Below, in pieces: positions 1 through 44,093 of a stretch of 61,218 nt of DNA. The position numbers and the translations under genes are program-made. How positions within the stretch are numbered: the first letter of the stretch is position 1; each line of letters begins with the position of its first letter. Source of the DNA: Acidimicrobiaceae bacterium (GTDB lineage: Bacteria > Actinomycetota > Acidimicrobiia > Acidimicrobiales > JAUTXP01); NCBI GenBank assembly GCA_030837965.1, contig JAUTXP010000041.1, positions 1 to 61,218 of the forward strand, in the 5' to 3' direction. The notes below the pieces were generated by a model. That model ran no database searches. It had not been told where the DNA came from and saw only the letters and a list, made by a program, of their open reading frames with translations.

Positions 1-30
1 CCCGCCCCCGCCCCCGCGGCCCCGCCCTCC
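1..30. repeat. C-run tract at window edge
   Basis: The first 30 bases are almost only C and G, with runs of C separated by single G. On the minus strand this G-rich tract follows the family A hairpin and the 3' end of the DUF58 gene. Similar G-run tracts flank other hairpins in the window (32589-32621, 58494-58565). Confidence 0.6.
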
Positions 31-65
31 ATCTTTTCCACAGCAGCAGGTGCTGTGGAAAAGAT
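31..65. repeat. Family A inverted repeat, copy 1
   Basis: A perfect 15-bp inverted repeat: arm 31-45 (ATCTTTTCCACAGCA) pairs with 51-65 across a 5-base loop. It lies 11 bases past the stop of the DUF58 gene. A related copy lies at 30569-30619. There is no T-tract on the minus strand after the stem, so it is not a classical intrinsic terminator, though it could still end or stabilise the transcript. Confidence 0.85.
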
Positions 66-76
66 GGGAGGGGTCG

Positions 77-1312
77 TCATTGGGGGGTCCCGACGGTGCG
101 CACGGCCCGCACCACGCGCTGGAAGACGCGCTCCAGCGGTGCGCCGGCGGCCAGTTCGACCACGTTGCACCCCAGTGACCCGGCCCGGTGCAGCGACGCG
201 AAGTCCGACGACTCCCACAGCACCATCACGAGCAGCAGCGACCGGCCCCGTTCGAGCAGCAGCCGCAGCCGGGTCGCCGTCTCCCGATCGAGGTGCGGGG
301 TGATGACCACGTTGTGGGCGTTGCCCTGCGGCGAGTGCATGAGCCGGCTCAGCGCGTCGCGCAAGGGCGCCTTCTCGGTCGACACCGCGGCCAGCGCGTC
401 GAGCAGCGGGATGCCGCTGTTACGCCCCCGCAGCGACGCGGCCAGACGTCTGCCGTTGGCGTCCAGCGACACCGAGAACCCGTCGTTCAGATGCTTCATC
501 CCGAGCGACGCGGCCACCTTCACGGCCAGCTCGAACGTCTCGCTGGGCTGGCCCGGACTGTGCCATTCGCGGTCGGTGTCGAGGAACAGGTTGATGCGGT
601 CGGTGATCCCTTGCTCGGCCTCGCGAACGAGGTACTTCGGCTCCTCATGTCGGGCCGCGGCCCGCCACACGATGCGACGAGGGTCGTCGCCGCTCACGTA
701 GTCGCGCATGCCATAGAACTCGAAGCCGGTGGGCCACGGCTTGGACACGGGCGGACGCAGCGGCGGGTCCTCCCACTCCCTGCTGCTGACCCGGTCGGTC
801 ACGGGCTCGGTCGACGGGTGCACGATCAGCGGCGCCGCGGGCGCCAACTGCACGCGGTGCCGGGTGAGGCCGAACGGGTCGCTCCACTCCGCGCTCAGCG
901 GGCCCACGTCGTGCACGCCCCTGCGCCCGGCCCGCAGCCGGTACCGATGGGTAGCGGACTCCCCCGCGCCCAGCGACGCCACCGGGATGCGAACCGCCCG
1001 TCCCAGCGCGGGTGCCAACCGCTCCTCGACCACGATCGTCGTGACCCGCTTGGCGGGCGACAGCGTGACCTCCACATCGACGGCCTGGCCCTCGCGCAGC
1101 CGGGTCGGGAACGAGGACCGCTCGGCCGACAGCCCGAGCCTGCGCCTGCCCAAGGACCAGGCCACTGCGAAAAAACCCAATGCGCCAAAAGCCAAAAGCA
1201 CCACGGCCTCGCTGCGGAGAACGCGGCCAAGGACCTGCGCGAACAACGCGAGCACCAGCACGGCTTGACCGACAGGTGTGACACCCGCGCGCCGCTCGAT
1301 CTCGCGGATCAC
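77..1312 (-). CDS. DUF58 family protein
   Basis: A 411-residue protein of the DUF58 family, which normally travels with a MoxR AAA ATPase as here. Two hydrophobic segments lie near residues 13-57, followed by a beta-rich region and the family hallmark GDDPRRIVWRAAAR near residue 210. After it comes a stretch with LFLDTD that resembles the first strand of a von Willebrand factor A fold. The GTG start lies 7 bases after the moxR stop, so the two are cotranscribed. Family knowledge: MoxR-DUF58 pairs are proposed to act as chaperone or metal-insertion systems for a partner protein, but no substrate is established. Here the likely partners are the transporter genes just upstream in the same series. 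The hairpin at 31-65 follows the stop. Confidence 0.9.
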   Translation of the reverse strand: MIREIERRAGVTPVGQAVLVLALFAQVLGRVLRSEAVVLLAFGALGFFAVAWSLGRRRLGLSAERSSFPTRLREGQAVDVEVTLSPAKRVTTIVVEERLAPALGRAVRIPVASLGAGESATHRYRLRAGRRGVHDVGPLSAEWSDPFGLTRHRVQLAPAAPLIVHPSTEPVTDRVSSREWEDPPLRPPVSKPWPTGFEFYGMRDYVSGDDPRRIVWRAAARHEEPKYLVREAEQGITDRINLFLDTDREWHSPGQPSETFELAVKVAASLGMKHLNDGFSVSLDANGRRLAASLRGRNSGIPLLDALAAVSTEKAPLRDALSRLMHSPQGNAHNVVITPHLDRETATRLRLLLERGRSLLLVMVLWESSDFASLHRAGSLGCNVVELAAGAPLERVFQRVVRAVRTVGTPQ

Positions 1313-32621: not shown

Positions 32622-35600
32622 TTACTTGAGGAGCAACTGCAGGAGGCGCTGCCACTCCTTGACGTCGCCGCCGCGTTGGGACAGCGCATCGGTGAGGTCG
32701 TCGAAGTCCCTGTGCACCGACTCGGGCAGGGCCGCGGCCAGCGCCTCCAGCCGGGCCAGGCGACCCGGGTCGGGCCGGTCGGCCAGCAGCACCAGGCGCA
32801 TGTACTCGAACAGCTCGACCGTGACCTGGGCGGGCAAGGCCAGGTCGCCCACCGGGCCCAGCGACGTCAGTGCGTCGGCGTAGGCCTCGGCATCGCCGCG
32901 CCCGTCCAGCAACAAGAACTCCAACAGGTTCAGCTTGGGGAACGGCGACGCGGGCATGCGCTCGACCGCACCCCGGACCAAGGCCTCGGCCCGATCACGC
33001 TCCCCCAGTCGCAGCAGCATCAGGGCGTAGCGCTTGACCGCCCACGTGTAGGTCGGGTGCTCGGCCAAAAAGGCCTCGTAGGCCGCGGCGGCCTCGTCGT
33101 CGCGCCCGGCCTTTTCCAAGAACCAGCACTGATGCGACAGCGTCCACAGATCCTCGGGCCCGCCCACCGGATGGGCCACGGCCACGTCGTACCAGCGGCC
33201 CGCCTCGTCGAAGCGGCCGTTGCGCTCCAGGATGTAGGCGTAGTAGTTGGCGCCCTGCACTCTGTCGGGCTCGGCCTCGAAGGCGCGTGACAGGTGGGTC
33301 AAAGCCGTGTCGAAGTCGTACGACTTGCCGTAGCACTGGCCGATCCCGAACTCCACGTCCGGGTCGCCGTGGCCCGACGCCAGCAGCCACGAGTACAGCT
33401 CGATGGCCGTCTTGTACGCGTCCGCCTCGCGGAGCACCTCGGCCGCGGCCTTGACGGCCCCGGCCGACGCGTCCCGATAGGCCCCGGCCACGCCGGCCAG
33501 ATCCCCGGCCGAGGCCATGGCCGCCAACGCGGCACCGTCACCCTTTACAGCGTCACCCTGCACCGAACCAGCCATCGCGCTCCCCCTTGTCGACCGTGCC
33601 CCCAACCTGCCCAGGATGGCATCCGCCTCGCGCCCGTGCTCGGCCGCCCGCTCGTCCAGCCCCACCTGCCGCTCCAATGCGGCCAAGGCCAGCAGCGTCT
33701 GGCCCACCTCGTACATCACCGAGGACTCGCGCCCAAGGCGCAGGCTCTCCTCCAAAAGGGACTGGGCCTGGTCGACGTCGCCCATCCCCGCCGCGGCCAG
33801 GCCTTGGTTGCGCAAGGCCATGGCCACCAGGGCGCTGCCCCCGGCCGTCACCTTGCCCTTCATGGCCGCCGACAGGGCCGTGGCCTGCTCGTAGCGCTCG
33901 GCCTCGACCAGGAGCTCGGCCATGCGGGCCTGCGTCTCGACCACGAACAGGTCGGCCCGGATGGCGCGGAACCCGTCGAGGGCGCCGGACAACAGGTCGG
34001 TGGCCTCGTCGATGCGACCGGCTCGGCCCGCAGCCCGGCCCAGGTTGCTGGTGGCCAGGGCCACGCCCACTGGATAGTTGGCGTTGCGGAAGACCTGGCG
34101 GGCCTGTCGGAAGAGGGTCTCGGCCTCGTCCAGCCTGCCTTGGTCGGACAGGATCTCGCCGATGTTGTTGGCCGCGGTGGCCGCGCCGACCACGTCGCCC
34201 GCCCGCTCCCTGGCCACCCGACTGCGCTCGTACAGCTCGAGCGCGCCCTCCCAGTCGCCTTCGTAGTACGCGTCGATGCCGAGGTTGTTCAACACGTTGG
34301 CCTGGCCCAACAGGTCGCCGATCTCCTCGTAGATGGGCAGGGCCATCTCCCGGTACTTCAACTCCGGCCTGCCCAAGTCGGTGAGCGCGTTGTCGAGGAT
34401 GAAGTAGGCGTGGGCCAGCGTGGACTTGTCGCCCGCGGCCTCGGCGTCGGGCACCGCGCCCTCGGCCCACCGCACGCACTCTCGCAGCCTCCCCTGCCGG
34501 TAGCGCACGACGGCGTAGCCCACGGCCAGCCGGGCTCGCAGCGCGGCTCGCTCCTCGGTCGTGAGCCCCTCGATGACGCGCAGCCCACGCCCGTACCACC
34601 GCAGCGCGTCGGTGTAACGGCCGAGCCGCTCGCGCAGCACCGCTTCTTTGACCATGACCCGGGCCCGGCCCTTGGCGTCCGCGGCGAGCAGCTTGCGCAC
34701 CGAGCGATAGGCCGACGACGCCTGGTCGTAGAGCGCGGCCACCTCGCACACGTCGCCCAAGGCCTCGTTGACCCTGGCCACCTCGGCGGGCGCGGTTGCG
34801 GTCAACTCGGGCAGGGCGCGCGCCGCCTCGAGGCCCCGGCGGTAGAACTCGGCCGCCTCGACATTGGCGTAGACGCCTCGCGCGTGGTCGCCCGCGGCCA
34901 CCGAGTAGTGCCACGACTCCGGGTGCCTGCCCGCGTGGTGGAAGTGCAGTGACAACAGGCCAATGGCCTCGTCGCCGTGCACCGCGCTCGACCGTTCGAG
35001 CACCTCGCCCACCCGGCCGTGCACCTCGCGCCGGCGGGAGAAGGGAAGCGCCTCGTAGGCCACCCGGCGGAACAAGTCGTTGCGGAACCGGTACACGCCG
35101 TCGTCGGCGACAACGAACTCGGCCAGGCGCGCCCACGCCGACTGGTCGGCCGCCTCCGCCACCAAGGGGGCCAGCGCGTCGTGCATCAACTCGCCGGTGA
35201 AGCGGGCGCCGAGCACGCTGGCGTAGCGCAACAGTTTTCGGTCGGGCCCGGCCAGCCGGTCGAGGCGCGACGACACGATGGCCTCCACGCTGTCGGGCAG
35301 GGCATCGAGGTCGGCCTGGGCGCCGCATGCGGCCACCAGTTCCAGCAGGAACAACGGGTTCCCCGACGACCGCTCGACCAGGCGCGAGAAGAAATGGGGG
35401 GGAATGGTGACACCGTCAATGGCGAGGGACAGCAGCGCGGTGGCGTCGTCGTCCGGCAGCGGCCCCAGGTCCACGGCCACGGCCTCGTAGCCCATGCCCG
35501 CGTGCAGGCCGGTGTCCACGCCGCGGCGGCTGACGCACAGCACCCAGGGATGGTCGGCCGCCGTCGCGGCCACGTGGGCAACCAACTCGGCCGACGCCTC

Positions 35601-37442
35601 GTCCATCCAGAAGGAGTCCTCGAACACGATCAAGGTCGGGTCAGGCCAGGCCTGGCCCAACAGGTGCTCGGCCGCCTCGTGCAGGCGCGGGCGTCGGAAC
35701 TGCGGCGCCAACTCGTCCACCTCGCGCGTCGTCGGCACCGTGGCGTCGGCCGCCATGGCCAACAGCGGCGTCCACGCCAGCAGCTCGGGCGCGAGGGCGC
35801 CGACCAGGCCCACGAGGTCCTCGCCCGCGGCAGCCGGGTCGTCGTCCAGCGAGATGCCCAAGGCCGTGCGCAGGAGCAGCCGGGCTGCGAAGTACGGCGT
35901 GTTCGACTCGTACTGCTCGCACTCCACCACCACTCGGCGCAGACCCTGGGCCCCGGCCCGCTCCACGGCCTCGCCCACCAGGCGGGACTTGCCCATGCCC
36001 GCGTCGCCCACCAACTCGACGACAGAGCCGCGCCCCGCCACACCGGTGGCCGTGCCGGTCGCGGTAGCGGCGGCAAAGGCGGCGTCGAAGACGGCCAACT
36101 CCGCGGCCCGACCCACGAAGGGCTGGTCGCCGATCACTCGACGCCGCCCGGCCCGCATGGGCCGGTTCACGGCCAGGGCCCGCACTGGCAGGCTCTTGCC
36201 CTTGACCATGAACGGGGCCAGGGCCTCGGTCTCGAACCGGCCAGGACAGCGCTGCACCACGGCCTCGGTGGCCAGGAGCTGGCCGGGCCCGGCCTTGCCC
36301 ATGACGCGCGCGGCCAGGTTCACGGCGTCGCCCATGGTGGAGTAGGTGAACCGGAAGGGGGCACCGACCGCGCCCGCGTACACATGCCCGCGGTTGACGC
36401 CCGCCCGAATGCGCAGGCCGTACTCGCCGTCGAGCACTTGGCGCAGAGCGCGCAGCATCCGCTCCTCGCTGTCCTCGAAGGCCTCGGGCGCGCCCGCGGC
36501 CAACATGAACTTGCCGCCGTCCGGCCCGATGTCGGTGCAGATGACCGTGGCCCCAAAAGCGTCCATGGCAGTGACCACCGCGCTGGTCAGCCGGTCCAGC
36601 CGGGCATGCACCTCCTCGGGTCCGGCCTCGGTGAGCAAGGCGTCCACCCCGCCGAAGTGCATGAAGGCCACCGCCACCTGTCGATGCTCGGACTCCTCGA
36701 CGACCGACCCCAGCCTGCCCCGCAGGGCGAGGGGCACGAAGGTGTCGAGGTCAGCACCCGCGGCCACGGCCTCGGCCGCAATGCGCATGGCGTCGCCCTC
36801 GCCCACGATGTCGGCCTTGGGAGCCGAGGCCAACAGCCTTCCGCCCGCCTTCTCCTCCCCCACGCTCTTCGGGTCGAGGCCCGCGGCCGCGGCCGGGGAT
36901 AAGAGGATCTCCCCGGCGTCGGCGGCCGACTCCATGTCGACCGTCTCCGTCGCGGCCGGACCGGCTACCACCAGTTCCTGATGGCGGCCGCCGACGAGGA
37001 AGAAGTGGAAGGTGCCGGTGTGGACGCCTTGCGACATGCGCAGGATCACTTCGCCGGACGACGTGGAGATGCGGCCCGCTTGGCGCAGGACCCGGCGCAT
37101 CCCGTGCGAGGCCCGACAGGCCCGGGCCAGGTGGCCCTCGCCCGAGAAGAACAGGAGCAGGGCGTCGCCCCCGAACTTCAACACGTCGCCGCCGTACAGA
37201 CCCGACTCGGTGAGCAGGTGGGTGAAGACCGAGGAGATGGCGCCCACCAGCTCCTCGGCCCCCGCCTTGCCCTTGCGGGCCAGTCGTTCGGACAGCTTGG
37301 TGAAGCCGGACACGTCGGCGAACACCATCGTGCCCTGCTCCGCCCATACCCGTTGGCCCATGGCCGCCCGGTGCAGCAGGACGCGCGGGAGGTAGTCCAC
37401 CACCTCCCGAGCGGGCCCGCCGGCCGGGACTGCCGGGCTCAC
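32622..37442 (-). CDS. Adenylyl cyclase-AAA ATPase-TPR protein, soluble-AC-like
   Basis: A 1606-residue cytoplasmic protein. Cyclase domain 1 lies near residues 30-190 (metal-site FADVSGFTKLSERL and VLKFGGDALLLFF). Cyclase domain 2 lies near 250-430, with the metal Asp lost at its first strand (VAFMHFGGVD) but MGDAVNLAARV kept. An AAA/STAND ATPase follows (Walker A GDAGMGKSR near 490), then about 20 TPR-like helix pairs to the end. This order matches mammalian soluble adenylyl cyclase, where one active and one degenerate site form the catalytic pair. The start is GTG at 37442. It lies 16 bases downstream of the giant secreted-protein gene, so both may share a transcript. Confidence 0.88.
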   Translation of the reverse strand: MSPAVPAGGPAREVVDYLPRVLLHRAAMGQRVWAEQGTMVFADVSGFTKLSERLARKGKAGAEELVGAISSVFTHLLTESGLYGGDVLKFGGDALLLFFSGEGHLARACRASHGMRRVLRQAGRISTSSGEVILRMSQGVHTGTFHFFLVGGRHQELVVAGPAATETVDMESAADAGEILLSPAAAAGLDPKSVGEEKAGGRLLASAPKADIVGEGDAMRIAAEAVAAGADLDTFVPLALRGRLGSVVEESEHRQVAVAFMHFGGVDALLTEAGPEEVHARLDRLTSAVVTAMDAFGATVICTDIGPDGGKFMLAAGAPEAFEDSEERMLRALRQVLDGEYGLRIRAGVNRGHVYAGAVGAPFRFTYSTMGDAVNLAARVMGKAGPGQLLATEAVVQRCPGRFETEALAPFMVKGKSLPVRALAVNRPMRAGRRRVIGDQPFVGRAAELAVFDAAFAAATATGTATGVAGRGSVVELVGDAGMGKSRLVGEAVERAGAQGLRRVVVECEQYESNTPYFAARLLLRTALGISLDDDPAAAGEDLVGLVGALAPELLAWTPLLAMAADATVPTTREVDELAPQFRRPRLHEAAEHLLGQAWPDPTLIVFEDSFWMDEASAELVAHVAATAADHPWVLCVSRRGVDTGLHAGMGYEAVAVDLGPLPDDDATALLSLAIDGVTIPPHFFSRLVERSSGNPLFLLELVAACGAQADLDALPDSVEAIVSSRLDRLAGPDRKLLRYASVLGARFTGELMHDALAPLVAEAADQSAWARLAEFVVADDGVYRFRNDLFRRVAYEALPFSRRREVHGRVGEVLERSSAVHGDEAIGLLSLHFHHAGRHPESWHYSVAAGDHARGVYANVEAAEFYRRGLEAARALPELTATAPAEVARVNEALGDVCEVAALYDQASSAYRSVRKLLAADAKGRARVMVKEAVLRERLGRYTDALRWYGRGLRVIEGLTTEERAALRARLAVGYAVVRYRQGRLRECVRWAEGAVPDAEAAGDKSTLAHAYFILDNALTDLGRPELKYREMALPIYEEIGDLLGQANVLNNLGIDAYYEGDWEGALELYERSRVARERAGDVVGAATAANNIGEILSDQGRLDEAETLFRQARQVFRNANYPVGVALATSNLGRAAGRAGRIDEATDLLSGALDGFRAIRADLFVVETQARMAELLVEAERYEQATALSAAMKGKVTAGGSALVAMALRNQGLAAAGMGDVDQAQSLLEESLRLGRESSVMYEVGQTLLALAALERQVGLDERAAEHGREADAILGRLGARSTRGSAMAGSVQGDAVKGDGAALAAMASAGDLAGVAGAYRDASAGAVKAAAEVLREADAYKTAIELYSWLLASGHGDPDVEFGIGQCYGKSYDFDTALTHLSRAFEAEPDRVQGANYYAYILERNGRFDEAGRWYDVAVAHPVGGPEDLWTLSHQCWFLEKAGRDDEAAAAYEAFLAEHPTYTWAVKRYALMLLRLGERDRAEALVRGAVERMPASPFPKLNLLEFLLLDGRGDAEAYADALTSLGPVGDLALPAQVTVELFEYMRLVLLADRPDPGRLARLEALAAALPESVHRDFDDLTDALSQRGGDVKEWQRLLQLLLK

Positions 37443-37458
37443 CCGGTACTGACCTCGA

Positions 37459-40400
37459 TCATCGAAGGGCGATGTTTACCGTCTGGATCGTCCCATCGTC
37501 GAGCATGACCCCGATCCGCCAGTAGTAGCCGGCCTGCGCCTTGTCCGTCTTCCAGTTGTACTGGTAGTGGTCGCCGTCCAAGGTGAAGGTCCCGCCCGCC
37601 GACGGCGGGGCGATGTAGTCGCTCTCGTTCAACGGCAACGAGGTGCGCCCACCCTGGACCGGCGTCATGAACAGCGGCGTGCTGTTGGCCGAGACCAGGC
37701 TGCCGTCGGCCCGCTTCAACTGGAACTTCACCGGGACGTTGCTGCCCGCCTTGAACACGCTCGTGGTCTCGTTGACCTCGTGGCCCGTGTCGTTGATGGG
37801 CTGCTGGAAGCCGTCCCAGCGGTACAGGACCCGGTAGGTCACGGAGACGGAGCGGCTGTTGCCTGCCTTGTCCGTGCCCACGGCCACGTAGGTGTAGGTC
37901 CCGACGCCGTTGGCCGCGCCACCGGTCACCGAGGTCGTGCAGCCCGCCGGGCCGGACAACGAGTCGGTCACCGTGCACGTCGGCGTGGGAACGCTGCCGA
38001 CCGTGTAGACGGCGTTGTTGGCCACGCCGCCAACCGTCACGGTCGGCTGCACCTGGTCGAGCTTGATGGTCTTGGTCACGGAGTTGGTATTGCCCGCGAA
38101 GTCGAGGGCGGTCCCGACGGTGGCCACGGCCGCGCCATCGGTATTGACCTGCGTCGACGGCGAGCAGGACCGGATGCCGGACGTGACGTCGGTGCAGGCG
38201 AACGACACCGTCACCGGCGCGTTGTACCAGCCGTTGGCGTTGGCCGCCCGGTCGGTGGCCGCGTTGATGGACGGGGCCGCCTTGTCGATCACCACGACCA
38301 GCGTGGCGCTGCTGCCGTCATTGCCGGTGGCCTTGACCGTGTGATTGCCATCGGTGTTCACCGAGAAAGGCCCGGTGTAGCTCGTGGCCGCGCCGCCGTC
38401 GACCGACTTGGTGTAAGCGACGCCGGGCTTGCCTTGCAACGAGACCGAGACGCCGTTCACGTACCAGCCATTGGTGCCCGTGGGCTGACCCGGATCGATG
38501 ACCAGCTTGGGAGTGGCCCCGGCCAGAGGCACCGGGACGCCGGTGAAGTAACGGCCCTTGTTGGTGGTGAAGCCCACGTTGCCGTTGGAGTCCTGGCTCT
38601 CGGCCAGGTACTCGAAGTTGGTGCCCGTCACCGCGAAGACCGCGCTGTAGTGGTTGGGGTTGCTCGGATCGACCGTCAGCGCGTGCAGCGTCCACTGCCC
38701 GGAGCCGTCCTTCACGAGGACGGCCACCCGCTTGACGGTGCCCGCGGCGTCGGCCGTGTCCAGGCTGATGGTGAGCTGGCCGCCCGCCAACACGGCGTTG
38801 ACGTTGGTCAACTGCGGCGGCGTGAAGTCACCGCTGTTGGCGTACTTGACCTCGGCGCCGATGCCGTCGAACAGCCGCTCCACGCCGCCCGCGTTGGCCC
38901 AGCTCGCGTCCCTGAAGAACTGGCCAGGCAGCAGCACGGCCTGCTGGCGCGGTCCGGTCGGGGTGTTGAACTGGGTCAGCGTGTTGAAGCTGGTCGGGAA
39001 GGCCACGTCGCCTGCAGGCGGCGGCGGCTCGTTGACGGTCAGGTCGATGGTGGGCCTGGCCACGGCGGGCACGGCAGCCACGTCATGCGACTGGAGGCTG
39101 GTCAGGAACACGCCGTGGGCCAGCGTCCCCGCGGGCACGCTGTTGGGCGTCACGTCCACCGACACCTTGGGCACGATGGGCCGGTACTGCGTGACTTGCA
39201 GGCCCGAGGACACCACGTTGGGAGCGGTGGCGGTGAAGAACGTGCCCCCGCCCTTGCTCGTGTTCTGCGAGAAGGTGGGTGACACCGAGACCGGCGCCGA
39301 CAGCACGCCGGTGGCGTCGGCCGAAGGCGTGAGGCCTGCGTTGGCGGGGGCCGCGGCGGGCGCGGTCGCCATCTTCCACATCGGGAAGCCGTAGAAGGTG
39401 GCCTCCTGCATGGCCTTCTCGTCGTACGGGCCGTAGGCGCCGAGCTGGCCGAAGTAGGCCTGCTTGGCGTAGACGGCGGCCTCGCCCACGGACATGCTGC
39501 CGTCCAGGCGCTTGGCGAACTCGTTCATGAGCTGCTCGGACAAGGCCACCGCCGCGGTGTCGCCGTAGCCGAAGCCGGTGTTGGCCAGGTAGACGGCCGC
39601 CTTCTGCGAACTACCGAGGTAGTTCTGGGCCCAGTCGCTGCCCTTGGCCGCGTCGTCCGCATAGGCCGCGGGCATCGAGAGGCCCGCATGGCAGCCCATG
39701 GTGAACAGGATGCGCTTGCTGAGGGTCTGCGGATGCAAGGCGATGTCCGCGGTGGTGACCAGGTCCGACTCGTCCTGCGTGCTGTTGCCCAGCGCGGGCA
39801 GCGAGCGGTAGTGGTCGTAGTGGGCGTTGAGGCTGGCCACGTCAGGCGAGCCTGCGGCCGGGAACAGCGCGGCCAGCTCGTCGGACTTGGCCCACGTCTC
39901 GTTGATGAGGGTCTTGCGCTTGGTCCCGTCCGTGATGCGCGAGGCCAGCGAGTTGCTGACGGCCTGTGATCCATCGGCCAAGAAGTCGTAGCCGGTCGTC
40001 AGCGAGGACTTGGGGTCGAGCTTGCCCAATGCCGTCGTGAACTGGTTGACCTGGGCCACCACGTCGGCCGGGGTCTCGACCAGTCGGCCCACGGCCAGGT
40101 CGGGCACGTAGAGCGTGTGGTCCAGCCACCCGATCGGATCGACGTCGGCCAGCGGGTCATCGGTGAGGATGTTCTGCGTGGCCATCGAGGCGGCGATGGG
40201 CGTGCCCCGGTTGGTGCCGGTCTTCAGCAGGGCCGTGGCCGAGTAGTCCGACTCGTTGGAGATCTGCGTGTAGTCGGCCACCCGGGCGAACGGGATGATG
40301 TCGTCGCCGCCCACCACCACGATGTTCTTCAGGGTCGGGCGCTGGGCCCGCACGGTGTCGACGATCGAGGCGATCGACGTGAACACGGCATTGGCGTTCT

Positions 40401-43400
40401 CGGGCGAGCACGGGGCTGCGTCCCACGCCGAATAGGCCGCGGCGGCCGCCGCGCTCGACTCGACCGGATAGACGACGCCGGTGATCCCGAGGTCGGCCCG
40501 GTTGCTCAGCGAGTTTCGCAGCGCGTTCAGAGCCGAGTTGGTGTCCGTGGCGCCGAACGTGTCGCCCATGCGCTTCTGGTTGACGAGGTACAGCGTGTTC
40601 AGGCCGCTGGGCAGCGCAGGCGCGGCTCCGGCCACGCCCGAGCCTGCGTTGGCGAAGGTGCGGGCCGAGCACGTGGGTGCGGGCGGGGCCGCCCACTCCT
40701 TGACGTACAGCACGTACGGCGAGTTGCTCAGGCCGCCGTTGTAGGCCGTGACTTGGAGCGTGTAGTACTGCTGCACGCTGCCGTCGTTGCCGGGGACGGT
40801 CGGCTCCGCGTCGGAGACGGTGGCGATGAACTCGTCGGCCGTCGACCGGTTCTCCGAGACGCTGCGCAGCGGGGCCGCGCCAACCGGGATGTCGTCCAGC
40901 GTCTCAGGCGACAGGGACGACGTGGCCGCGCTGGCGTCGATGCCGTTGTCGGCGAGGGGGACGCTGCGGAGGGGGACGCTGCGGAGCGGGACGCTGCGCA
41001 ACGGCGCGCCGGTGGCCGTGTTCAACATGGCCACGTCGAAGTCGGCATCGGTGCTGTGGTTGCCCAGCCGCACCTGTAGGCGGGTGCCCTTGGCGGGCAC
41101 GGGCACGCGGTAGTAGTCGATGTCGCCCGCGCTGGCGATGTGCGATGCCAACAGCGTGTTGGGCGCAAGGACCGGTGCCGTGCCGGGCGCGTTGTTGCCG
41201 GTGCAGAGGAACTCGCATCCCACGGCGCCGCCCTCGAAGTCCTGGACGACCTGGACGGGGGCCTGGCCTTGGGCCGACACCGTGACGCCGTTCATGGTGA
41301 CTGCGATGGCCGACGTCGCTGCGCTGGCCAGGTCGAAGCCTGCATAGGCGCGGAACGTGAAGGTCGTGGTGGCGCCGCCCGGTGCGTTCAAGGTCCAGAC
41401 CAGGTGCTCGCCCGTGGCCACCGGGTCGGGGTAGGTCACGTCGTTGAACGACGAGCCGGGCACGTAGCGGAAGCCGGCCGGGAGGTCGACCACCAACGTG
41501 GCCGGCGCGCTGCCGTTGCCGGTCGTGGCGAAGGTGGCCCGATAGACGACCGTACGCGCCGCCTCACGGGCATCGGCGTAGGGCTGGAGGCCGGCCAGGG
41601 GCAGGTCCTCCCACGGGTAGTTGCTGGTGTCGATGAAGCCCTGCAACAGGTCGGCCAGCGACCCGGGAAGGTCGTTGGCGTTGACCGCGTCGAACAAGGT
41701 GCCGAGGCTGGCCGTGGTCACGATGGCGTTGGCCGTGGCCGCCTGGGCCAGGGTCTGCGTGGCGCAGTCGACGGCCGAGCAGTCGATGATGTTAGGCCGC
41801 TTGGCCGCGTCGATCTTGTTCAGCAGCAGGCCCCCGAGCGGGATGTCCTGGAGGAACACGCTGCGCAACGGCACGCTGCGAAGCGGGGCCGCACTGAGGT
41901 CGACCGACCGCAGGGGAACGCTGCGCAGGGGCACGCTGCGAAGGGGAACGCCGGCCAGGTCGACGGCCAGGATGGGGCTGTCCTGGGTCAGGCCCAAGGA
42001 CGCGCACGTGAAGCCGAGGCTCTGGATCAGCGCGCACCAGTTGCCGAACGGCGTGGCCGCCGGGCCGGGCACCGGCACCGAACGCAGGGGCGTGGCCCCG
42101 AGCAGCACCGAGGCCAAGGCGACCGAGCGCAATGGCGTGGAGGACAGGTCGACGTCGCCGAGCGACACGGAGTTCAGGCCCGTCGCAGTGGGCTGGGCGT
42201 CGAAGGCGTTGAAGAGGGCGTCGAGGGTGATGCCCTGGAGGGGCACGCCCGCGAACGGGTTGGGGTTCAGCGTGGCGAGGACGGACTCCCACGTGACGGA
42301 CCGCAGCGGGATCTCGGAGAGGGTGACGCTGCGGAGGGGCACGCTGCGAAGCGGCACGCTGCGCAGGGGCACACTGCGAAGCGGCACGCTGCGGAGGGGG
42401 CTCGATGCCACGTCGACGCTGCGCAGGGGGACGTCGGAGACGTCGTCCTTGTTGGGCGAGTCGAGCGGGATGGCCGTGGGCGGGATGGCGCTGGCAGGCA
42501 GCATGCTGAAGCCCGGCAGCGTCGAAAAGGCCTCGGTGTCAAGGCTCACGCTGGTCGGCGTGGGCGGCGTGTTGGCCACGATCGAGTGGACGAACACGTC
42601 GCTGTTCGTGTTGGTGTCGTTGATCGTGACGCCCGCCGCGCTGGTGGCGAAGCCGACGCTGTCGCCGCTCGAGCTCAACGTGGTGTTGGCCACCGGCTTG
42701 ACCGAGCCGTCGGCCGCGTTGCTCACCGCGTTGATGGCGCCGTTGGTGCGGTTCTTGACGAAGGAGCCGCCGCTCGCCGCGGCCGGGTCGAGGTTGGATG
42801 CAGACGACGTGAACGCGACCAGGTTGCCGTCCGCGCTCACCGCGCCCTTGGGGAAGTTGTTCGTGCTCCCGGCGCTGTCGGCATTGCCGTCAGTCCCGTC
42901 CGGCAACTGCGACATGCGGACGGTCTCGTTGGCCGTGTCGCCCGCCTTGAAGGCGACCAGGTTGAAGGCGTAGACGGCGCGGGGCTTGGCGGTCAGCGGG
43001 CCGTAGGCGTCGCCGTCCGACCAGTAGGCCATGATGTTGCCGTCGAAGGACATGGCGTCGGGGCCCAGGATCCCGGCGAAGTCGCAGAAGTTGCTGGACG
43101 TCCCCCGGTTGGCCAGGTTGGCGATGTTGTTGGCGCTGTCCCAGACGTAGAGCTCGTAGAAGCCGCCACCTGGGCAGCCCGCGTTGGCCGCCGTGCGGAG
43201 GTAGGCGACCTTGGTGCCGTCGCCGCTGATGGCCACTTGGCCACCTGCCTCCACGAAGCTGACGTAGGTGGTGGTGGACTGGCTGACATGGCGGACGTAG
43301 ACGCCCTGCCCGTTGCCCAGGTTGGGACCAGAGGAGTAGGCGATGAAGGCGATGTCGTTGCCGTCGGCCGAGGTGGAGAAGAAGTCGGGCCCGAAGCCGG

Positions 43401-43914
43401 ACAGGCCGTTGTTGCCCAGGTTCACCTGGACGGTGGAGCCGGTGCCGAAGTCGCGCCGGAACAGGTCGGTCTGGTTGTTGGTGTCGCCTGCCACCAGGTC
43501 GGTGGCCGAGGAGCGGAACACGACGCGCGCGCCGTTGTCGCTGATGGCGACCTCTTCGCCGCCGCTGGCCCCGTTGCCCGCGGCCACGCCGGACACGTTG
43601 ACGCTGACGAGGTCGATGGCGCCGGTGTTGATGTTCTTGCGGTAGACGTCCTCGACGCCGTTGGTGTCCTGCGGCACCAGTGCGCCGTCGCTGATGAACG
43701 CCACGTAGGTGCCGTCGGCGCTCAGCGCGGGCGTGTGGCTGGCCGCGTTGTTGGCCGCCTGCGCGCCAGACGCGTCAGTGCTGACCAGGGTGGTGCCCGG
43801 CGGACTGGCCGAGACCGTGGTGCCAGGGACGGCGAGCGCCCCCGAGATCAATGAGGAGGCTGCGATGAACGCGACAGCCCGTTGACGCCATCCCCCCGAC
43901 TTGGAGCCCCGCAT
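37459..43914 (-). CDS. Giant secreted protein: TolB-like propeller, PLRSV repeats, clan-CD-like peptidase, PxKF domain
   Basis: A 2151-residue exported protein. A signal peptide (core AVAFIAASSLISGALAV) is followed by a TolB/WD40-like propeller to about residue 455 (repeated LSADGTYVAFIS-type units). Next is a region with 14 PLRSV units (about 488-690), then 3 more near 968-986 and one near 1013. A caspase-like (clan CD, C25-type) peptidase region (about 1060-1500) has His near 1366 (NAHYDHYRSLP) and Cys near 1407 (FTMGCHAGL). Ig-like domains follow, then a C-terminal PxKF domain (VPVKFQLKRADG). ATG 43914 is chosen for GGAAAGG seven bases upstream; an ATG at 43920 is in frame. Probably cell-surface or extracellular. 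Confidence 0.85.
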   Translation of the reverse strand: MRGSKSGGWRQRAVAFIAASSLISGALAVPGTTVSASPPGTTLVSTDASGAQAANNAASHTPALSADGTYVAFISDGALVPQDTNGVEDVYRKNINTGAIDLVSVNVSGVAAGNGASGGEEVAISDNGARVVFRSSATDLVAGDTNNQTDLFRRDFGTGSTVQVNLGNNGLSGFGPDFFSTSADGNDIAFIAYSSGPNLGNGQGVYVRHVSQSTTTYVSFVEAGGQVAISGDGTKVAYLRTAANAGCPGGGFYELYVWDSANNIANLANRGTSSNFCDFAGILGPDAMSFDGNIMAYWSDGDAYGPLTAKPRAVYAFNLVAFKAGDTANETVRMSQLPDGTDGNADSAGSTNNFPKGAVSADGNLVAFTSSASNLDPAAASGGSFVKNRTNGAINAVSNAADGSVKPVANTTLSSSGDSVGFATSAAGVTINDTNTNSDVFVHSIVANTPPTPTSVSLDTEAFSTLPGFSMLPASAIPPTAIPLDSPNKDDVSDVPLRSVDVASSPLRSVPLRSVPLRSVPLRSVPLRSVTLSEIPLRSVTWESVLATLNPNPFAGVPLQGITLDALFNAFDAQPTATGLNSVSLGDVDLSSTPLRSVALASVLLGATPLRSVPVPGPAATPFGNWCALIQSLGFTCASLGLTQDSPILAVDLAGVPLRSVPLRSVPLRSVDLSAAPLRSVPLRSVFLQDIPLGGLLLNKIDAAKRPNIIDCSAVDCATQTLAQAATANAIVTTASLGTLFDAVNANDLPGSLADLLQGFIDTSNYPWEDLPLAGLQPYADAREAARTVVYRATFATTGNGSAPATLVVDLPAGFRYVPGSSFNDVTYPDPVATGEHLVWTLNAPGGATTTFTFRAYAGFDLASAATSAIAVTMNGVTVSAQGQAPVQVVQDFEGGAVGCEFLCTGNNAPGTAPVLAPNTLLASHIASAGDIDYYRVPVPAKGTRLQVRLGNHSTDADFDVAMLNTATGAPLRSVPLRSVPLRSVPLADNGIDASAATSSLSPETLDDIPVGAAPLRSVSENRSTADEFIATVSDAEPTVPGNDGSVQQYYTLQVTAYNGGLSNSPYVLYVKEWAAPPAPTCSARTFANAGSGVAGAAPALPSGLNTLYLVNQKRMGDTFGATDTNSALNALRNSLSNRADLGITGVVYPVESSAAAAAAYSAWDAAPCSPENANAVFTSIASIVDTVRAQRPTLKNIVVVGGDDIIPFARVADYTQISNESDYSATALLKTGTNRGTPIAASMATQNILTDDPLADVDPIGWLDHTLYVPDLAVGRLVETPADVVAQVNQFTTALGKLDPKSSLTTGYDFLADGSQAVSNSLASRITDGTKRKTLINETWAKSDELAALFPAAGSPDVASLNAHYDHYRSLPALGNSTQDESDLVTTADIALHPQTLSKRILFTMGCHAGLSMPAAYADDAAKGSDWAQNYLGSSQKAAVYLANTGFGYGDTAAVALSEQLMNEFAKRLDGSMSVGEAAVYAKQAYFGQLGAYGPYDEKAMQEATFYGFPMWKMATAPAAAPANAGLTPSADATGVLSAPVSVSPTFSQNTSKGGGTFFTATAPNVVSSGLQVTQYRPIVPKVSVDVTPNSVPAGTLAHGVFLTSLQSHDVAAVPAVARPTIDLTVNEPPPPAGDVAFPTSFNTLTQFNTPTGPRQQAVLLPGQFFRDASWANAGGVERLFDGIGAEVKYANSGDFTPPQLTNVNAVLAGGQLTISLDTADAAGTVKRVAVLVKDGSGQWTLHALTVDPSNPNHYSAVFAVTGTNFEYLAESQDSNGNVGFTTNKGRYFTGVPVPLAGATPKLVIDPGQPTGTNGWYVNGVSVSLQGKPGVAYTKSVDGGAATSYTGPFSVNTDGNHTVKATGNDGSSATLVVVIDKAAPSINAATDRAANANGWYNAPVTVSFACTDVTSGIRSCSPSTQVNTDGAAVATVGTALDFAGNTNSVTKTIKLDQVQPTVTVGGVANNAVYTVGSVPTPTCTVTDSLSGPAGCTTSVTGGAANGVGTYTYVAVGTDKAGNSRSVSVTYRVLYRWDGFQQPINDTGHEVNETTSVFKAGSNVPVKFQLKRADGSLVSANSTPLFMTPVQGGRTSLPLNESDYIAPPSAGGTFTLDGDHYQYNWKTDKAQAGYYWRIGVMLDDGTIQTVNIALR
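41856..42450 (-). repeat. PLRSV-coding 15-bp repeat block
   Basis: Inside the giant gene, units of 15 bases coding PLRSV recur, most in uninterrupted tandem groups of five, three and two, with imperfect units (TLSEI, VDLSA, VFLQD) between. Codons vary slightly at third positions. A second tandem group of three lies at about 40955-41010. Confidence 0.85.
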
Positions 43915-44093
43915 CAGCATCCCTTTCCCCCAGGTGGCCGCCTGTGGGCGGCCGGTTCGTGCCCGGTCGTATCTGCAGTGGCAGGACACGTCGAGCCGAC
44001 CGGACGCCTTTGCGCCCACTCCGGTCCCACGCCCCCGTCCGCAGGGTACAGCGGCTTGTTCGCCCCTCGATACCCCTTCTCCCGCTGAGAGTG

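Follow-up and report, generated by a model that had tools for sequence, protein, structure and literature searches.

The window (the whole analyzed stretch of 61,218 nucleotides) encodes a large secreted protein in which the exact five-residue word PLRSV recurs at two separate sites upstream of a domain related to C25 (gingipain-type) cysteine peptidases. Relatives of this protein have arrays at these two sites too, but written in other words. The word seems to change in every copy of an array together, while the silent positions of the DNA are free to drift. The probable, if far from settled, explanation is a pentapeptide-repeat solenoid combined with a second, word-matched insert on a secreted C25 peptidase, with the copies kept alike by concerted evolution and purifying selection. 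The preliminary description of this DNA had missed the peptidase, the second insert and the lineage-specific switching of the word.

All 18 PLRSV copies lie in one frame of the host gene (Table 1) and the other frames of the window contain none, while 2000 shuffles of the protein gave a mean of 0.0025 copies and a maximum of one. The preliminary description had located 18 units between 41856 and 42450. The count is correct, but only 14 copies (41857–42429, residues 531–721) fall inside that interval, and the other four (40858–41004, residues 1006–1054) lie 0.85 kb beyond the main block in a different domain. Its remark that the degenerate units keep leucine at the same step agrees with our reading, as in-phase degenerate units hold a hydrophobic residue there. 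A text search of the literature, judged by titles, returned no PLRSV in any relevant sense, and none of the relatives found below comes from a genome of the same genus or family as the window.

Table 1. Coordinates of the host gene and its parts in the window.
Feature	Coordinates	Strand	Basis
Host gene, 2186-aa multidomain secreted protein	37459..44019	-	Open frame; all 18 PLRSV in frame
N-terminal PD40/WD40-like beta-propeller region, approx. residues 75–480	42580..43797	-	PF07676 and SADG/SxDG motifs
Ig-like (integrin/pilin-type) beta-sandwich	41239..42567	-	AlphaFold2 model and VIA-align
Block A run 1, residues 531–575	42295..42429	-	Seven PLRSV and in-phase DVASS, TLSEI
Block A scaffold between runs, residues 576–691	41947..42294	-	Family alignments; AlphaFold2 bridge and three-residue-turn pattern
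Block A run 2, residues 692–721	41857..41946	-	Five PLRSV and in-phase DLSAA
Block A C-terminal scaffold with IIDCSAVDC motif, residues 722–815	41575..41856	-	Alignments; AlphaFold2
PPC (pre-peptidase C-terminal/collagen-binding type) beta-sandwich, approx. residues 938–1109	40693..41208	-	Fold comparison
Block B first part, three tandem PLRSV in PPC loop, residues 1006–1020	40960..41004	-	Exact word count
Block B second part, one PLRSV before SENRST, residues 1050–1054	40858..40872	-	Exact word count
C25 (gingipain-type) cysteine peptidase domain, residues 1141–1550	39370..40599	-	PF01364
C-terminal PxKF domain, residues 2069–2186	37459..37815	-	NF038114, E = 3.5e-27

The listed start codon of the host gene is a GTG, and the ATG at residue 34 (ending at 43920) is the likelier start. 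Residues 34–72 read as a likely signal peptide, in line with the earlier suggestion of a secreted protein. The N-terminal region matches the PD40 family PF07676 in Pfam at residues 93–113 (E = 4.6e-05), and the extent of the putative propeller follows from recurring SADG/SxDG motifs. An AlphaFold2 model of residues 485–1115, computed with 19 relatives, had a mean pLDDT of 74.8. In this model the first strand of the Ig-like domain comprises residues 487–495 and the remainder extends from about 823 to 927, with block A in between; VIA-align matched this domain (model range 1..443) to integrin and pilin Ig-like domains with Z scores of about 11–12.6. The following domain aligns with the collagen-binding domain 3jqw (Z = 13.0, rmsd 1.8 over 109 residues) and, by Foldseek, with 5sv5 (TMt 0.78). 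Since the Pfam PPC profile scores 15.5 bits in the window protein, below its cut-off of 25.9, we call the domain PPC-like; of five family members scanned, three match the profile with E values of 0.1 or less, the best being 3.3e-05. Based on the fold comparison and the predicted domain limits, we read both arrays as loop insertions in beta-sandwich domains, with block A in the Ig-like and block B in the PPC-like domain. The scaffold between the two runs of block A holds GVPLQGITLDAL, VDLSSTPLRSV and LGATPLRSV pentads as well as a conserved NWC...C motif. At the place homologous to the second part of block B, three relatives (L030, L033 and L060) also carry a copy of their own word.

The C25 assignment rests on PF01364 (E = 5.1e-10, 39.6 bits versus a cut-off of 23) and on the putative catalytic residues His1400 (39820–39822) and Cys1443 (39691–39693), which correspond to H260 and C303 of alignment A1 and are invariant among five relatives. 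In addition, the best PDB match of a model of relative L083 is gingipain R (1cvr, E = 5.1e-11). The host protein is thus a C25 peptidase by relatedness, with putative proteolytic activity. With the gingipains RgpB and Kgp it shares the Pfam C25 family, the invariant His and Cys and, through L083, the fold match to 1cvr and 4rbm. Unlike gingipains, it also contains the propeller, the repeat-bearing Ig-like and PPC domains and the PxKF end. The PPC or bacterial collagen-binding domains 3jqw, 2o8o and 5sv5 are alike in fold, but in the present family one loop of this domain carries an array, consisting of pentads in Actinomycetota and mostly of hexads in Chloroflexota. The downstream neighbor on the same strand (32622–37442) codes for a protein of 1606 residues; its sequence reads like that of a regulator of the adenylate/guanylate-cyclase type and includes an ATPase region as well as TPR-like repeats.

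Sequence comparison provides good support for reading block A as a pentapeptide repeat in the register V-P-L-R-S, as the preliminary description had proposed. The window segment matched 13 PDB sequences, of which ten are pentapeptide-repeat proteins; these fill the first ten places and align leucine to leucine, although the best E value of 0.003 is weak. A query composed of window units reached E = 3e-05 against PDB; because it was composed by hand, we give this value little weight. The orthologous block of relative L047 scores 99.3 bits with PF13599 (cut-off 38) and 54.1 bits with PF00805 (cut-off 20.2), and aligns in register with HetL (3du1, E = 1.6e-15) and also with 2j8k (E = 1.2e-10). 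The orthologous block of L062 scores 42.0 bits with PF00805 (cut-off 20.2). The best Pfam E value among these orthologous blocks is 1.3e-28. The window protein's own block is below the Pfam pentapeptide cut-off.

The units that interrupt the arrays point in the same direction. We collected 202 such units, defined as in-phase units with at least two positions unlike the word, from the window protein and 27 relatives. Asp occupies the first position in 90 of them (45%), Leu, Val or Ile the second in 183 (91%), Gly, Ala or Ser the fourth in 135, and Thr, Ser or Ala the fifth in 134 (66%). The resulting form, D-L-x-(G/A/S)-(T/S/A) across the family, fits the published pentapeptide consensus (PMC7337050). 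That consensus has D/N at position i-1, or D/N/S/K/E/I/R in an amended list, and does not include Pro (PMC7337050). Many interrupting units carry such a residue, and none of the 18 PLRSV copies does, as all have Pro in this position. With runs of nine and six in-phase units plus the scaffold pentads, block A contains at least eight pentads in tandem; their position i is Leu (once Val) and their position i-2 is V, T, S, A or I. A search for a four-unit period of the interrupting units gave no clear signal (z = 2.6 at lag 3, 1.7 at lag 4 and 2.6 at lag 12). Because of the Pro at i-1 and the score below the Pfam cut-off, block A would be a variant pentapeptide repeat rather than a standard member.

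The likeness to known pentapeptide-repeat proteins (PF00805, PF13599; HetL 3du1, Alr5209 6omx, NP275-NP276 2j8k, MfpA) thus comprises the five-residue period, Leu at i, an aliphatic or small residue at i-2, a polar residue at i+1, interrupters that follow (T/S)-D-L-x-(G/A/S), matches of orthologous blocks to the same Pfam models, and their in-register sequence alignment to proteins of solved structure. In contrast to these proteins, the majority word of the present family has Pro at i-1, recurs exactly in 18 to 53 copies in many members, and sits in a secreted peptidase. In pentapeptide-like stretches of related genomes the commonest unit makes up 9–30%, whereas here the word is exact and lineage-specific. 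The Knotted Solenoid, which was described recently in bacteria and is close to the pentapeptide family, is reported to be exclusive to a specific group, Brevundimonas (PMC13123833), and we set it aside as a match on taxonomic grounds.

Structure prediction, which had been suggested as a check of the beta-helix reading, supports a regular five-residue pattern over residues 555–815 but not over residues 520–553. Between about 555 and 815, most pentads show a bridge and, after it, a turn of three residues at L-x-x, with pLDDT mostly at 71–96 and at 62–63 in two ten-residue blocks (run 2: about 76–86; C-terminal scaffold: about 74–96). Residues 520–553, the purest run, and most of the window PPC insert remain below 50; values are about 20–45 for the PPC inserts of the window protein and L083, and about 22 for the hexad array of L083. 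For perfect repeats, AlphaFold2 is reported to predict solenoids too readily (PMC11795689), so the absence of a confident solenoid in the pure run is noteworthy. Foldseek and VIA-align matched the window model to beta-sandwich domains only; these searches hardly probed block A, and the lack of solenoid matches carries little weight. By eye, words from Chloroflexota such as I-G-Q-I-S-N and I-A-Q-L-S-D fit [LIV]-[GAED]-x-x-[STAV]-x, the period-6 pattern of the left-handed hexapeptide-repeat helix, a triangular coil.

No relatives came out of a contig scan that used only the repeat block. In contrast, a scan with the C25 alignment identified 80 loci in named genomes, distributed over Acidimicrobiia, other Actinomycetota, Chloroflexota and a few others. 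Of 148 sampled genomes from the window's class, only six are carriers, including the window's own. Profile searches of PDB gave no match for the C25 alignment and a single ribosomal-protein chain for alignment A5, which we dismissed as chance since it covers only profile positions 91–134, within the repeat. The preliminary description had asked for PLRSV-type repeats in other actinobacteria. Such arrays do occur at the same two sites in both Actinomycetota and Chloroflexota, with other words, and nearly every sufficiently long member has one at block A, in the PPC loop, or at both. The five-residue words include PLRSV, PLGAI, PISSL, PLAAV, PLSAI, PVGSI, PIRST, PMRST, PIRFS, QLRQV and GVGHT, and the six-residue words, which are not pentapeptide repeats and occur in Chloroflexota and one actinobacterial clade, include APNLRR, GNLSSI, GQMSNI and AQLSDI. 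Chloroflexota members carry their array in the PPC loop, mostly with six-residue words and with in-phase interrupters such as GELLDM and GFLNEV. An acidimicrobial clade (L022/L050, L037, L046, L053, L023) has hexads at block A, where its relatives have pentads; its words are APNLRR, APNMRR, APNARR and APAGKR, as well as APNGRR in L023.

Mapping these words on a C25 tree revealed whole-word differences between close relatives (PLAAV versus PISSL; PLSAI versus PLRGV versus PLRSV; and, with weak support in the tree, PLRAV within PIRFS), and PLRSV itself occupies two distant places. Three Herpetosiphon proteins (L098, L102, L105) with about 90% identical C25 domains contain eight hexads each, with the word GNLNAI in two species and, in the third, GNLDAI together with one interrupting GQIESL hexad. 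These members belong to named strains and would make a good experimental system. Similarly, L077 and L097, at 85% identity in C25, contain eight GNLSSI and eight GNLGSI, respectively. Two MAGs encode pairs of paralogues: L041 and L044 share PIRFS, and L032 and L059 have different words (GIKHI and STIRH), so that paralogues need not share a word. Two further loci occur in MAGs labeled Gammaproteobacteria (L091, PFFGL) and Rhodobacteraceae (L043, PLRAV); L043 nests inside acidimicrobial PIRFS sequences, possibly due to a binning error or to transfer.

The two sites of a protein can share one word. This is the case in nine of 37 proteins, where the block A word also occurs in the protein's own PPC insert; it is absent from this insert in the other 28. 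No block A word was found in the PPC insert of a protein with another word (0 of 1300 pairings), and 5000 permutations of the pairing gave on average 0.66 and at most four matches, a figure that overstates the significance because relatives sharing a word do not count as independent cases. Six different words match at both sites (PLRSV, PIRST, PMRST, PLGAI, PVGSI and KLSSI). In the four genomes searched, no word array was detected outside this gene, and we reject for these genomes the idea of a genome-wide tag common to many proteins. Matches on another contig of the window's genome (G000:C54) were discarded as antisense to another repeat. With the array confined to one gene, matching would take place inside one protein or between its copies. 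Contig G000:C54 also encodes, on the forward strand, an S8-subtilase-like protein (read from its sequence) with a C-terminal array (about 38600–38960) of about 25 GSQWA/GSQWG pentads; their silent positions are mixed (codon identity 0.59). This protein, L112, adds to the genome another secreted peptidase with pentads in tandem.

Exact repeats are usually ascribed to recent duplication. The preliminary description had read recent expansion from near-identical codons. This premise failed: the 18 copies of PLRSV comprise 16 distinct 15-mers, with AGC, AGT, TCG and TCC for Ser and CTG, CTC, CTT and TTG for Leu. Whole-codon identity among the copies is 0.46, compared to 0.38 ± 0.03 expected for independent draws from the gene's own codon usage. 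In relative L030, the 49 copies of PLGAI come in 39 DNA versions (codon identity 0.39 versus 0.41 expected) and one-residue variants are absent among them. L033 (0.43 versus 0.43) and L065 (0.41 versus 0.41) also behave as expected by chance, and in L033, L065, L055, L074 and L034 the codon likeness of copies is within two standard deviations of chance. Partial DNA homogeneity was observed in L043 (0.82), L036 (0.75) and L060 (0.72). Summed over the family, about 680 exact five-residue copies compare with about 30 one-residue variants. In several orthologue pairs, the codons of aligned copies are less conserved than those of the C25 domain (e.g., 0.48 versus 0.71 for L055/L056), which fits copy turnover inside the array; this comparison counts exact copies only, and the trend is reversed in a few pairs, for example in L084/L087. 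The silent diversity may reflect selection for codon diversity, which would stabilize the DNA repeat, or slow saturation, and the data fit both alike. Taken together, identical protein copies, near-random silent DNA and wholesale replacement of the word point to concerted change combined with very strong selection for identity.

We suggest the following model. Block A would be a pentapeptide-repeat solenoid in the loop of the Ig-like domain, in which a lineage-specific word, present in many copies, is combined with canonical (T/S)-D-L-x-(G/A/S) units, and a smaller second insert with the same word would sit in the loop of the neighboring PPC domain, next to the catalytic domain. Recombination within the gene may carry a single word into every copy of both inserts, after which strong purifying selection would fix the amino-acid word while silent positions diversify. 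The pure runs may likewise adopt the solenoid fold, including its four-sided coil. Most likely, the array would then serve to position the extracellular peptidase, as a rigid arm or as a scaffold, with copies matching within one chain or between copies of the protein. Uniform copies would be needed if, as we propose, they pack against each other, in the same chain or across chains.

Several other explanations deserve consideration. PLRSV copies resemble their immediate neighbors slightly more than they resemble distant copies (0.58 versus 0.45), and a 74-bp sub-block (42326–42399), the only one with the pattern of recent duplication, shows a 30-bp period with 93% match. These observations, together with the partly homogeneous copies of L043, L036 and L060, are what a recently expanded DNA tandem repeat without special role would predict. 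They suggest some local duplication, not a recent origin of the entire array: the 16 DNA versions among 18 copies, the random or nearly random silent positions of many relatives that have 30–50 copies, and the rarity of one-residue variants largely refute such an expansion and rule it out as the sole cause, which leaves this explanation very improbable. A better case can be made for flexible disordered linkers or low-complexity stalks without any solenoid, in view of the low pLDDT of the PPC inserts and of residues 520–553 despite the bias of AlphaFold2 toward solenoids. Nevertheless, the strict five- or six-residue phase persists through the interrupting units, a hydrophobic residue is fixed at one or two steps, and block A is related to pentapeptide repeats and, outside residues 520–553, regular in pattern at a pLDDT that ranges from moderate to high, so that we regard disorder as unlikely on the whole, although it may apply to the PPC inserts.

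Up to 53 identical copies with free silent sites, lineage-specific words and a peptidase in the same chain are also reminiscent of multi-copy precursors of neuropeptides and pheromones, which show identical copies with free silent sites. Release of each copy as a small signal peptide by the peptidase is nevertheless the least probable of the explanations considered, since the copies are not separated by any constant cleavage site, many words (PLGAI, PISSL, GNLSSI) contain neither Arg nor Lys so that gingipain-type specificity could not be general, and a hydrophobic pattern that keeps step with the structural units is common to all words. Alternatively, the array could be a multivalent ligand for an outside partner whose preference shifts by lineage and thereby drives coordinated word switching, as in recognition proteins whose repeats undergo concerted evolution. 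The uniformity of the word within a protein and its difference between close relatives would fit such a scenario, and a related pattern has been described for the Brachionus mate recognition gene (PMC3495898). However, such a partner is hypothetical, and of the two paralogue pairs, each from a single MAG, L032 and L059 have different words and L041 and L044 share theirs; we therefore consider an outside partner rather improbable. Somewhat less doubtful, though still not likely, is a self-matching code in which copies at the two sites recognize each other, the array changes its word as a block, and lineages become incompatible. If this were true, the family would represent secreted peptidases with a lineage-specific, rewritable assembly key that is built from five- or six-residue repeats at the same sites.

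For the preferred reading, a pentapeptide-repeat solenoid with a word-matched second insert, a literature search by titles and abstracts returned nothing evidently concerned with a link between pentapeptide repeats and secreted gingipain-type peptidases. The present family makes this link. Furthermore, the occurrence of five- or six-residue words at homologous sites makes the family a natural experiment that bears on the tolerance of repeat proteins, and on the reason why their copies must match.
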